In this document: in pieces, positions 25,064-34,603 of the stretch
Position numbering within the stretch: position 1 is the stretch's first letter
Layout: the number at the start of each line of letters is the position of its first letter
The notes under the pieces: generated by a model
Told to the model about the DNA's origin: nothing
The model's input: the letters and a program-made list of their open reading frames with translations, nothing else
Database searches by the model: none
Translations under genes and position numbers: made by a program
Source: Gallaecimonas kandeliae
GTDB lineage: Bacteria > Pseudomonadota > Gammaproteobacteria > Enterobacterales > Gallaecimonadaceae
Reading direction: 5' to 3'
DNA length: 64,000 bases
NCBI RefSeq assembly: GCF_030450055.1
Contig: NZ_CP118480.1
Coordinates: forward strand, 2,259,415 to 2,323,414

Positions 25064-25696
25064 ATGACCCTGACCTGGTCGCCCCTTGGGGACAGCGCCC
25101 TGGTATTGAACCTCAACGATCCCGGCGTGGAGGCCCAGCGCCAGCTCCATTGGCTGGCCGGCCAGTTGGCAGGCAAGGCCGAGCTGCTGGAGGCGGTACC
25201 CGGCATGGGCAACCTGACCCTGCTGCTCAAGGCCCCCGGGGCCGATCTCGACGCCCTGGCCGGGCATTGCCTGGCGCTCTGGGAAAAAAGGCCAGCCCAG
25301 AGCCATTCCGGCAAGCTGCATCTGCTGCCGGTGCGCTACAAGGGCCCGGATCTGCACCTGGTGGCCGAATACACAGGGCTCACCGAGGAAGAGGTCATAG
25401 CCCGCCACAGCGGTACCACCTACGAGGTGGCCTTCGTAGGCTTCATGCCGGGCTTTGCCTACCTCACCGGCATGGACAGGCGCCTGGCGGTGCCGCGCCG
25501 GGCCGAACCCAGGGTGCAGGTGCCGGCCGGCGCCGTGGGCATCGCCGGCAGTCAGACCGGCATCTACCCTCGCCAAAGCCCGGGCGGCTGGCAGATCATC
25601 GGCTACATGGAGCAGCCCCTGTTCGACGTGACCCGGGAGCCGCCGGCGCTGATCCAGCCCGGTGACCAGATCCGTTTCGAGGTGCGCCATGACTGA
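25064..25696 (+). CDS. pxpB: 5-oxoprolinase subunit PxpB (KipI family)
   Basis: 210 residues. Family landmarks: PLGDSALVLNL start, VGFMPGFAYLTGMD, and GSQTGIYPRQSPGGWQIIG. With PxpA and PxpC it forms the ATP-dependent prokaryotic 5-oxoprolinase that opens pyroglutamate to glutamate. Its last ~16 residues (…PGDQIRFEVRHD) are echoed at the end of each of the three small ORFs that follow. Confidence 0.9.
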   Translation: MTLTWSPLGDSALVLNLNDPGVEAQRQLHWLAGQLAGKAELLEAVPGMGNLTLLLKAPGADLDALAGHCLALWEKRPAQSHSGKLHLLPVRYKGPDLHLVAEYTGLTEEEVIARHSGTTYEVAFVGFMPGFAYLTGMDRRLAVPRRAEPRVQVPAGAVGIAGSQTGIYPRQSPGGWQIIGYMEQPLFDVTREPPALIQPGDQIRFEVRHD

Positions 25697-25775
25697 GGCT
25701 CTGAAAGACAGCTTCCTCGCCGCCATCCCATCCCAGCCTGGACACCGGATCCAGTTCGAGGTGCGCCATGATTGA
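25689..25775 (+). CDS. 28-codon relay ORF 1 of the pxpB/pxpC repeat
   Basis: Encodes MTEALKDSF…IQFEVRHD. Its ATG overlaps the pxpB stop by 8 bases, and its own stop overlaps the next ATG by 8 bases, so ribosomes could pass along by reinitiation. N-terminus resembles PxpC, C-terminus resembles PxpB. A product by itself is unlikely to be an enzyme; it may only be a passenger of the repeat. Confidence 0.4.
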   Translation: MTEALKDSFLAAIPSQPGHRIQFEVRHD

Positions 25776-25854
25776 GGTTTTGCAAGACAGCATCCTCGCC
25801 ACCATCCCATCCCAGCCTGGACACCGGATCCAGTTCGAGGTGCGCCATGATTGA
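25768..25854 (+). CDS. 28-codon relay ORF 2 of the pxpB/pxpC repeat
   Basis: Encodes MIEVLQDSI…IQFEVRHD, intermediate between units 1 and 3. Overlaps both neighbours by 8 bases, keeping the coupling seen at the pxpB end. Confidence 0.4.
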   Translation: MIEVLQDSILATIPSQPGHRIQFEVRHD

Positions 25855-25933
25855 AGTGCTCAAGGGCGGCATCCTCGCCACCATCCCATCCCAGCCTGGA
25901 CACCGGATCCAGTTCGAGGTGCGCCATGATTGA
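25847..25933 (+). CDS. 28-codon relay ORF 3 of the pxpB/pxpC repeat
   Basis: Encodes MIEVLKGGI…IQFEVRHD; the first 13 codons equal those of pxpC. Its stop overlaps the pxpC ATG at 25926 by 8 bases, restoring the usual pxpB-pxpC coupling. Confidence 0.4.
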   Translation: MIEVLKGGILATIPSQPGHRIQFEVRHD

Positions 25934-26837
25934 AGTGCTCAAGGGCGGCATCCTCGCCACCATCCAGGACGGCGGCCGACCCGGCCTTCGCAACCAGGGG
26001 GTACCTGTCAGCGGCGCCATGGACAGCCTGGCCTTGCAGGCGGCCAACCTGCTGCTGCAAAAGCCGCCCCTGGCCCCGGCCATCGAGATCACCTTCGGCC
26101 AGACCCAGCTGCGCTTCCAGAAAAGTGGCTGGGTGGCCCTGACCGGCGCCGATCTGGGCGCCAGCTTCGACAACGAACCCGTCACCCCGGGCTGGCGTTT
26201 CCACGTAGAGCCGGGGCAAGTCCTCCATTTCCGCCAGCCGAAGAAGGGCTTCAGGGCCTACCTGGCGGTCAGCGGCGAGCTGGAGGTGCCCCAGGTGCTG
26301 GGCTCGGCCAGCACCGACATCAGCTCCGGCTTCAATGCCCCCCTGGCCACAGGCGACGAGCTGGGCTGGCGCCCAGAAGGCGATTTCCAGGCTCCCCTTT
26401 TCGTGCGGGTACCGGGCACGGGCCGGCTGCGGGTGCTGCCGGGGCCCGAATACGAAAGCTTCGACCAGGAGGCCAAGACCCTCTTCTGGCACAACGACTG
26501 GACCATAGGCTCACTGTCCAACCGCATGGGTTACCGCCTTAACGGCCCCAAGCTGACCCGGCTGGTGGGGGACGAACTGCCCTCCCACGGCGTGATCCCC
26601 GGCACCATACAGGTGCCCGGCAATGGCCAGCCCATAGTGCTGGCCATGGACGCCCAGGCCACAGGCGGCTACCCCAAGCTGGGGGTGATCATTGCCGCCG
26701 ATCTCTGGCAGCTGGGGCAGCTGGGGCCGGGCCGGCGCCTGGGCTTCATCCCCGTGACCATGGCCGAGGCGCGTCTGGCCTGGCAACAGCAACAGGCCTA
26801 TCTGAAACACCTGGAGGAATTCGTTGCAGCGCATTGA
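25926..26837 (+). CDS. pxpC: 5-oxoprolinase subunit PxpC (KipA family)
   Basis: 303 residues, family length. MIEVLKGGILATIQDGGRPG, GVPVSGAMDSLALQAAN and the late QATGGYPKLGVI segment identify the biotin-dependent-carboxylase-like KipA/PxpC family. The start at 25926 aligns with the family N-terminus; earlier in-frame codons belong to the repeat. Partners PxpB and PxpA flank it. Confidence 0.92.
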   Translation: MIEVLKGGILATIQDGGRPGLRNQGVPVSGAMDSLALQAANLLLQKPPLAPAIEITFGQTQLRFQKSGWVALTGADLGASFDNEPVTPGWRFHVEPGQVLHFRQPKKGFRAYLAVSGELEVPQVLGSASTDISSGFNAPLATGDELGWRPEGDFQAPLFVRVPGTGRLRVLPGPEYESFDQEAKTLFWHNDWTIGSLSNRMGYRLNGPKLTRLVGDELPSHGVIPGTIQVPGNGQPIVLAMDAQATGGYPKLGVIIAADLWQLGQLGPGRRLGFIPVTMAEARLAWQQQQAYLKHLEEFVAAH

Positions 26838-27564
26838 TTTCAACGCCGATCTCGGCGAAGGCGCCCCCTTCGACGCCGAGCTGATGCCGCTCATCAGCTC
26901 GGCCAATATCGCCTGCGGCTTCCATGCCGGCAGCCCTGCCTTGATGGCCAGGACTGTGGATCTCGCCATCCGCCACGGCGTCGCCATCGGCGCCCACCCC
27001 AGTTTCGACGACAGGGCCAACTTCGGCCGCACCGAGATGACCCTGGACCCACAAGAGGTCTTCGACCTGGTGCTCTACCAGTGCGGCGCCCTCAAGGCCC
27101 TCTGCGAGGCAAGGGGCGCGGCGCTCCACCACGTCAAACCCCACGGCGCCCTCTACAACCAGGCCGCCCGTGACCCGGCCTTGGCCGCCGCCATCGCCGC
27201 GGCCGTCAAGGCCCTGGGCCCCAGCCTCAAGCTCTATGGCCTGGCCGGCGGCCAACTGCTGGTGGCCGCCGAAAAGGCCGGCCTTGAGGCCGTTTCCGAA
27301 GTCTTTGCCGACCGCCGCTACCAGGGCGACGGCAGCCTGGTGCCGCGCAGCCAGGCCGGCGCCGTGCTGGAGGACGACGCCGAGGTCCAGGCCCAGGTAC
27401 TGGCCCTGGCCATGGATGGCGAGGTGCAGGCCCAGGGCGGTGGCAAGATCCAGGTCAAGGCCGACAGCCTCTGCCTGCACGGCGACAACCAACATGCCCT
27501 GAGCCTGGCCAGGACCCTTCGCCAAGCCCTGCTCGAGCGACAGATCGTCATAGAGGCCCCCTGA
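26824..27564 (+). CDS. pxpA: 5-oxoprolinase subunit PxpA (LamB/YcsF family)
   Basis: 246 residues. IDFNADLGEG, SSANIACGFHAG, GAHPSFDDR and HVKPHGALYN are the LamB/YcsF signature blocks. The start is a TTG, unusual but supported: GGAGG lies 6 bases before it inside the pxpC 3' end, and the family begins at this point. Overlaps pxpC by 14 bases. Confidence 0.92.
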   Translation: MQRIDFNADLGEGAPFDAELMPLISSANIACGFHAGSPALMARTVDLAIRHGVAIGAHPSFDDRANFGRTEMTLDPQEVFDLVLYQCGALKALCEARGAALHHVKPHGALYNQAARDPALAAAIAAAVKALGPSLKLYGLAGGQLLVAAEKAGLEAVSEVFADRRYQGDGSLVPRSQAGAVLEDDAEVQAQVLALAMDGEVQAQGGGKIQVKADSLCLHGDNQHALSLARTLRQALLERQIVIEAP

Positions 27565-30692: not shown

Positions 30693-30768
<76 letters not shown>

Positions 30769-30774
30769 AAATTG

Positions 30775-30791
30775 TGGCGTCCCTAGGGGAT
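30775..30791 (-). pseudogene. tRNA-Glu 3'-end fragment
   Basis: Matches the acceptor end of the tRNA-Glu genes (one C fewer) and then runs into a chain of short hairpins instead of a tRNA body. A twin lies at 31210-31227. Confidence 0.6.
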
Positions 30792-30928
30792 TACGAAATG
30801 CCTTCGGCATTTCGCCCTTCGGGCCAGCCTTTCGGCTGTTCCAAGACGCTACGCGCCTTGGTCGAACTGCAGGGTTTCTCACCCCTTGGTGACGCTACTG
30901 GAATGGCGTTCACCTCAGTTCTTCGATG

Positions 30929-31004
30929 TGGCGTCCCCTAGGGGATTCGAACCCCTGTTACCGCCGTGAAAGGGCGGTGTCCTAGGCCTCTAGACGAAGG
31001 GGAC
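30929..31004 (-). tRNA. tRNA-Glu (TTC)
   Basis: 76 bases with CCA; anticodon stem CCGCC/GGCGG and loop CTTTCAC gives anticodon TTC. The cognate synthetase gltX lies just upstream of the operon. Confidence 0.97.
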
Positions 31005-31127
31005 AAAATTTGCAGTCTGCGACGCGTTGCGTCGCGGCAAATTTTGTAAGGTGAGACTTTGCTGGTCAAAGTCGAACGGCAATTCTGCCTTTCACCTGCA
31101 CTAATGCTAGGACATCAGTGACTTATT

Positions 31128-31203
<76 letters not shown>

Positions 31204-31209
31204 AAATTG

Positions 31210-31227
31210 TGGCGTCCCCTAGGGGAT
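31210..31227 (-). pseudogene. tRNA-Glu 3'-end fragment
   Basis: Same relic as at 30775, in the second copy of the 435-bp unit: tRNA-Glu acceptor end followed by UUCG/GAAA-capped small hairpins. Confidence 0.6.
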
Positions 31228-31363
31228 CACGAAATGCCTTCGGCATTTCGCCCTTCGGGCCAGCCTTTCGGCTGTTCCAAGACGCTACGCGCCTTGGTCG
31301 AACTGCAGGGTTTCTCACCCTTGGTGACGCTACTGGAATGGCGTTCACCTCAGTTCTTCGATG

Positions 31364-31439
31364 TGGCGTCCCCTAGGGGATTCGAACCCCTGTTACCGCC
31401 GTGAAAGGGCGGTGTCCTAGGCCTCTAGACGAAGGGGAC
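31364..31439 (-). tRNA. tRNA-Glu (TTC)
   Basis: Second copy, same sequence as 30929-31004, anticodon TTC and encoded CCA. Confidence 0.97.
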
Positions 31440-31626
31440 AAAAATCAGGCTTTGCAAAGCCTCGCTTTGCACTGATTTTTGTAAAGGCTTGGCTGAGCCA
31501 ACGAAGCCATGCGGCTTCTTCCTTTACATCAATCGAGCCAAATTTTTTAAGGTGAGGTTTTGCTGGCAAAACCGAACGGCATTTCTGCCTTCACCCGCAC
31601 CGATGCTAGGACATCGGTGACTTATT

Positions 31627-31702
<76 letters not shown>

Positions 31703-31793
31703 GAAACTACCGTATCGAACCTGCTGTGCTGGTGCAGGCCAAATTGTCGCTCTTTTCAGAGCTGGTCACCGCTTACAAGCCATGACCACTGTT

Positions 31794-31866
31794 TGGTGGA
31801 GCCAGGCGGAATCGAACGGGGCAACCTTTGTCGCCGACCTCTTTTCCGATATATCCTACACCATCA
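31794..31866 (-). pseudogene. Broken tRNA-Ala
   Basis: The acceptor 3' end, CCA and T-arm edge of tRNA-Ala are kept (TGGTGGAGCCAGGCGGAAT on the plus strand), but the anticodon and D arms are unrecognisable. Lies between two intact tRNA-Ala genes. Confidence 0.65.
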
Positions 31867-31878
31867 AACACTTGAATT

Positions 31879-31954
<76 letters not shown>

Positions 31955-33860: not shown

Positions 33861-33934
33861 GGAGCAAAGAGGGAGAGCAACTCCCGCTGTGACAAGAACC
33901 GGGGATAACGGGTCAAACCCGGTATCACCCACCA
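33861..33934 (+). pseudogene. Broken tRNA-Val
   Basis: The 3' half (T arm, CCGGTATCACCC acceptor, CCA) is almost intact; the 5' acceptor is lost and the D and anticodon arms are scrambled. Sits between copies 2 and 3. Confidence 0.75.
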
Positions 33935-33978
33935 TTTACAACGTAAAGCCGACAACCCAGGGCTTTACTACAGATTTA

Positions 33979-34129: not shown

Positions 34130-34205
34130 GGGTGATTAGCTCAGCTGGGAGAGCACCTCCCTTACAAGGAGGGGGTCACTGGTTCGAACCCGGTATCACC
34201 CACCA
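34130..34205 (+). tRNA. tRNA-Val (TAC)
   Basis: Fourth identical copy and last intact gene of the operon, followed by a terminator at 34213. Confidence 0.97.
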
Positions 34206-34212
34206 TCTACTT

Positions 34213-34238
34213 AAAGGCCACCGAAAGGTGGCCTTTTT
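34213..34238 (+). terminator. First terminator after tRNA-Val copy 4
   Basis: Stem AAAGGCCACC / GGTGGCCTTT, GAAA loop, T run. Three further hairpins of the same shape follow in the repeat array. Confidence 0.85.
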
Positions 34239-34603
34239 CTTTATCCGGAATACGAGCCGGGAGATGTGGCACCGCCCGCTTCTTACAAGAACCGGGCGTC
34301 ACTGGTTCGAACCCGGTATCACCCACCATTTCAAAAAGGCCGCTGCAAAGCGGCCTTTTTCTTTATCCGGAATACGAGCCGGAAGGTGTGGCACCTCCCG
34401 CTTCTTACAAGAACCGGGTATCACGGTTCGAACCCGGTATCACCCACCATTTCAAAAAGGCCGCTGCAAAGCGGCCTTTTTCTTTATCCAGAATACGAGC
34501 CGGAAGGTGTGGCACCTCCCGCTTCTTACAAGAACCGGGCGTCACTGGTTCGAACCCGGCATCACCCACCATTTCAAAAAGGCCGCTATAAAGCGGCCTT
34601 TTC
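34239..34603 (+). repeat. Three tandem ~122-bp modules: tRNA-Val 3' fragment plus terminator
   Basis: Units at 34239-34360, 34361-34481 and 34482-34603. Each starts CTTTATCC(G/A)GAATACGAGCC, carries a degenerate tRNA-Val 3' portion (T arm, acceptor strand and CCA kept, about 60 bases) and ends with an intrinsic terminator (stem GGCCGCT / AGCGGCC, loop GCAA or ATAA, T run). The 5' acceptor strand and D arm are absent, so these are not functional tRNAs. No coding gene is seen here. Confidence 0.88.

Follow-up and report, generated by a model that had tools for sequence, protein, structure and literature searches.

Between pxpB and pxpC of Gallaecimonas kandeliae, three tandem repeats form a chain of overlapping small open reading frames (mini-ORFs), which raises the question of how such a chain arose and whether it serves the expression of pxpC. 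The window that was analysed is a stretch of 64,000 nucleotides (contig NZ_CP118480.1), in which the 5-oxoprolinase operon has the order pxpB-pxpC-pxpA, with family matches in that sequence to PxpB, PxpC/TIGR00724 and PxpA (Table 1). The identities of pxpB and pxpC, proposed in an initial annotation made from the sequence alone, are borne out by the profile matches to TIGR00370 and TIGR00724. The best match of pxpC is to NF045499 PxpC (329.7 bits, with the equivalog cut-off of 500 not reached), and pxpC overlaps pxpA by 14 nt. The ATG at 25926 is used as the pxpC start, a position that is backed by the congeners. The longest open reading frame containing pxpC runs from a TTG at 25851 to 26837 (328 aa) and starts inside the array, so automatic gene callers may misplace the start of this gene. 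A class-wide survey of TIGR00724 yielded mostly larger fusion proteins and was left out of the analysis of junction spacing.

The array is detected by TRF as one tandem repeat at 25654-25965 with a period of 79, 91% matches, no indels and a score of 456; its 3.9 copies take in parental sequence on either side. Each mini-ORF consists of 28 codons and a TGA, with a pxpC-type head and a pxpB-type tail (QFEVRHD before the stop), and the description of three 79-bp units, each joining a pxpC-like start to a pxpB-like end, proved exact to the base against TRF and the open reading frames. The stop codon of pxpB (TGA) lies at 25694-25696, and the stop/start overlap is 8 nt at all four junctions (ATGACTGA once and ATGATTGA three times), so that the 8-base overlap at the pxpB end is indeed passed along the chain, as first claimed. 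In the genome of this strain (3.84 Mb) the array is present at a single locus. That it is an artefact of assembly or sequencing is extremely unlikely, since the units can be told apart: the three unit heads differ from one another at 6-10 positions, which one falsely duplicated sequence cannot yield, and the genome is a single contig that is 99.98% complete.

Table 1. Features of the pxpB/pxpC junction and its operon, in positions of the window
Feature	Position	Strand	Basis
pxpB, 5-oxoprolinase subunit B, 210 aa	25064-25696	+	NCBIfam TIGR00370, 189.6 bits vs cut-off 145.55; ORF
T0, 3' end of pxpB itself (type from which the unit tails derive)	25652-25696	+	SD GAGGTG; overlaps first ATG
Three 79-bp tandem units, 237 bp inserted	25689-25767, 25768-25846, 25847-25925	+	TRF; relatives L003-L005
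mini-ORF1, MTEALKDSFLAAIPSQPGHRIQFEVRHD then stop	25689-25775	+	ORF; overlaps pxpB stop by 8 nt
mini-ORF2, MIEVLQDSILATIPSQPGHRIQFEVRHD then stop	25768-25854	+	ORF; overlaps mini-ORF1 by 8 nt
mini-ORF3, MIEVLKGGILATIPSQPGHRIQFEVRHD then stop; head = pxpC start	25847-25933	+	8-nt overlaps with mini-ORF2 and pxpC
pxpC, 5-oxoprolinase subunit C, 303 aa	25926-26837	+	TIGR00724, 289.6 bits vs cut-off 230.2
pxpA, TTG start, operon context	26824-27564	+	NF003814 PxpA, 307.8 bits vs cut-off 226; ORF

The comparison of this junction with close relatives, which the initial annotation had called for, was carried out in a genus sample of five genomes (this one and four congeners). The repeats are absent from all four congeners, and in three of them (L003-L005) pxpB overlaps pxpC directly by the same 8 nt (GTGATTGA); in the fourth, the two genes overlap by 4 nt, with GTG. 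Together, the absence of the array from the congeners and the direct 8-nt overlap in three of them indicate that a single junction is the ancestral state. No tandem period of at least 30 was found by TRF at the loci (L003-L031) of 29 relatives. At fourfold sites, pxpC has diverged by 32% from that of the nearest congener, which exceeds the 25% difference between the first unit head and pxpC and fits an origin of the array after the split from that congener.

It has also been considered that the array is a mobile repeat of the kind known as MIRUs in mycobacteria, which inserts at start codons and brings its own coupled ORF. Its size, its tandem layout between operon genes and its coupled mini-ORFs agree with the descriptions of MIRUs, but the genome holds no second locus, and the unit is composed of pxpC-start and pxpB-end sequence. 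Moreover, a search with the unit in 395 genomes of the order gave no match outside the genus and no dispersed copy, its sole other match being a congener's own pxpB/pxpC junction. A dispersed repeat was rejected by these searches of the strain's own genome and of the order, and a mobile element is accordingly regarded as most improbable.

The explanation that we consider probable is that the overlapping junction of pxpB and pxpC was duplicated locally and in tandem in this lineage, giving an array that has persisted because it is nearly harmless. In a simulation, every tandem duplication that reaches 20-110 bp into pxpB on one side and into pxpC on the other was generated from the collapsed junction; a chain of mini-ORFs with 8-nt overlaps resulted in 2694 of 2700 duplications whose length was 1 (mod 3), and in 0 of 5400 of other lengths. 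Thus, about one in three duplications yields such a chain without design, and later copies preserve it. The motif ATCCAG is present in both pxpB and pxpC, in the same codon phase and 73 bp apart (73 = 1 mod 3), and is a plausible seed for the duplication, as recombination at this motif would join Ile-Gln to Ile-Gln in frame. The first duplication would have fused the pxpC start to the pxpB end in frame, perhaps via the common ATCCAG, and subsequent copying and homogenisation would have led to three units, although this order of events is a reconstruction from the sequence of the units. The unit measures 79 bp against the 73 predicted, and a simple ATCCAG model does not account for the further 6 bases (ATCCCATCCCAG in place of ATCCAG), for which reason the ATCCAG step is one that we infer.

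Other duplications are present in the window. A second tandem array, at 34171-34602, follows the final member of a set of four tRNA-Val genes and comprises 3.5 copies of a 122-bp unit, in which the 3' part of tRNA-Val (GGTTCGAACCCGGTATCACCCACCA) is followed by a terminator-like hairpin and a T-run, with no full tRNA; this arrangement resembles the rtT repeats downstream of tyrT in E. coli. A degenerate tRNA-Val-like 3' half (GGGTCAAACCCGGTATCACCCACCA) at 33878-33935, between intact tRNA-Val genes, is perhaps a decayed tRNA copy. On the minus strand, six tRNA genes at 30693-31954, four for tRNA-Ala(GGC) and two for tRNA-Glu(TTC), partly alternate, which suggests tandem duplication.

The fine structure of the pxpB/pxpC array can be described with the notation T0 H1 T1 H2 T2 H3 T3 H4, in which pxpB ends with T0 and pxpC starts with H4. 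The unit tails T1, T2 and T3 are identical over 40 of 40 nt, as had been noticed at the outset, and differ from T0 at 10 of 40 positions, while the heads are graded in their likeness to pxpC, with 10/40 differences in H1, 8/40 in H2 and 0/40 in H3. The head-versus-tail differences give Fisher p values of 0.007 and 0.001, with boundaries that were set post hoc. Identical tails beside heads that are 15-25% divergent would appear to need homogenisation or selection on the tail, beyond simple neutral drift. Codon 3 is GAG in both H1 and H2, and their codons 7-8 read GACAGC (Asp-Ser), which makes these two heads sisters. The congeners carry GGCGGC or GCGGGG (Gly/Ala-Gly) at head codons 7-8; at one tail codon they carry CAA or CAG (Gln), where T1-T3 have CAG and pxpB itself has CGT. 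These codons indicate that the pxpB end and the first two heads were altered after the array began, and the tails and last head look as if they were copied or homogenised later than those changes. The earlier suggestion of recent duplication or conversion therefore holds either for the last copy, where the stretches around the ATGs of 25847 and 25926 agree over 97 nt, or for a homogenisation of the tails, but not for the first two units, which are older.

Whether the mini-ORFs encode a functional peptide of 28 aa, or part of a PxpB/PxpC variant, can be judged from the same substitutions. All three frames are open and complete with start and stop, have a good SD and share identical C-terminal halves, which would be expected of such a peptide. 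Nevertheless, they have no Pfam match and are absent from the relatives, and most head substitutions alter an amino acid; third codon positions are not clearly in excess, accounting for 4 of 10 changes between H1 and pxpC, 4 of 8 between H2 and pxpC, and 0 of 6 between H1 and H2. In the two older heads, the changes show no clear purifying pattern such as conservation of a peptide would leave, and a peptide function is considered very unlikely.

With respect to translation, the SD GAGGTG lies 4 nt upstream of all four ATGs, with an identical pairing energy to the 16S tail of -9.6 kcal/mol. A value of -8 kcal/mol or better is attained by about 15% of all the ATGs of the window. The unit tails share 17 identical nt around the ATG with pxpB's own end. 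For termination-reinitiation, the distance from stop to next start is expected at about -8 to +10 nt, and it is -8 at all four junctions, with the SD close to the upstream stop at the array junctions. Translational coupling along the chain, as proposed in the initial annotation, is thus plausible in view of the 8-nt overlaps, the same GAGGTG before four ATGs and the published spacing rules. It has been shown that coupling is almost gone at +38 nt and that the final 15 nt of the upstream gene are enough (Huber 2023, PMC10666635). By this spacing, a gap of 229 nt lacking the mini-ORFs should uncouple pxpC, and the tails found here should not.

In the working proposed for the duplicated junction, each unit would bring the pxpB end, with the SD GAGGTG followed by a TGA that overlaps the next ATG by 8 nt. 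Ribosomes coming from pxpB may either traverse all three of these minimal ORFs or load directly at the SD, and the start context of pxpC would stay native. The mini-ORFs, which are probably translated, would hold terminating ribosomes close to where pxpC starts and beside a strong SD, such that the insertion is tolerated. Since the insert renews the coupling context at every unit, persistence with a small effect is predicted, by an argument like that made for MIRUs (PMC12548453), and the array may be close to neutral. The folding of the RNA is not unusual in the array region (shuffle z-scores of -0.06 to 1.52). A reading as RNA structure or riboswitch was rejected on this ordinary folding and on the lack of any Rfam family at gathering score, and an internal promoter or terminator was rejected as no such site was found.

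Alternatively, the chain may be a translational relay under selection, by which the output of PxpC is set relative to PxpB, with the repeat number as the knob. In a simple model, where r0 is the own initiation at each SD, c the coupling per unit and R_B the pxpB term, the pxpC rate becomes r0(1+c+c^2+c^3)+c^4*R_B, compared with r0+c*R_B for a single junction, and the array would insulate pxpC from pxpB. In this toy calculation, the chain would move the pxpC rate toward r0/(1-c) and lessen its dependence on PxpB, with effects of 0.37- to 2.6-fold depending on c and R_B, all parameters being assumed. A real effect on PxpC is possible, with a sign that is not predictable from the sequence. The overlap geometry preserved across all units, the SD identical throughout and the homogenised tails agree with a relay, subunits of complexes are over-represented among overlapping gene pairs (Huber 2023, PMC10666635), and in a synthetic setting a short coupled ORF raises downstream expression up to 20-fold. 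On the other hand, the chain geometry follows automatically from a third of possible duplications, the congeners do without the array, and the RNA structure is not unusual. A selected relay is hence regarded as unlikely, and a fuller version, in which a junction-born minicistron chain of adjustable copy number insulates or sets PxpC against PxpB and has uniform tails for that reason, as decidedly improbable. The original suggestion that the chain may be a tuning device is not supported, as a third of duplications give the chain, its heads show no sign of conservation as a peptide and its RNA folds ordinarily.

Among known systems, termination-reinitiation gene pairs resemble the duplicated junction in their overlap, in the SD beside the stop/start and in having subunits of one enzyme as partners, and an overlap of -8 is one of three that are enriched (Huber et al., 2023, PMC10666635; Brown and Wade, 2025, PMC12548453). 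Such pairs usually have one junction, whereas here there are four in series, making the array a natural test construct for the decay or saturation of coupling over successive junctions. In coupled small ORFs, linkage to the next gene outweighs the peptide sequence, both in mycobacteria (PMC4633059) and in synthetic 'nonsense' ORFs (PMC13255528), a precedence of linkage over peptide that would apply here as well; those are single ORFs, as opposed to a tandem chain made from an operon junction.

The initial annotation knew of no described case, but the mycobacterial MIRUs provide one, and nothing closer was found in the literature on duplicated gene junctions. In M. tuberculosis H37Rv, three 77-bp MIRU units lie between senX3 and regX3 (PMC4213456). 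The ORF of a MIRU unit is described as coupled to the following gene, on which minimal impact is supposed, and MIRUs are dispersed and apparently mobile, with a spacing of -4 nt (PMC12548453; Supply et al., 1997, cited there). The likeness is that both arrays consist of short units in tandem, three of 77 bp in H37Rv and three of 79 bp here, which lie between operon genes of the same direction and whose ORFs overlap the next start, and by this analogy the array may work like a MIRU. By membership it is not a MIRU, being set apart from the descriptions of these elements by its -8 rather than -4 nt spacing and by its confinement to one locus, where it is made from its two flanking genes, in contrast to an interspersed and mobile repeat. 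On its own, the array is a curiosity of a single operon in one species. What is new relative to the MIRU precedent is its local origin, which shows a simple route by which one duplication of the right length modulo 3 turns an overlapping junction into a chain of coupled mini-ORFs, and which offers a possible model for the origin of MIRU-type coupled repeat elements.
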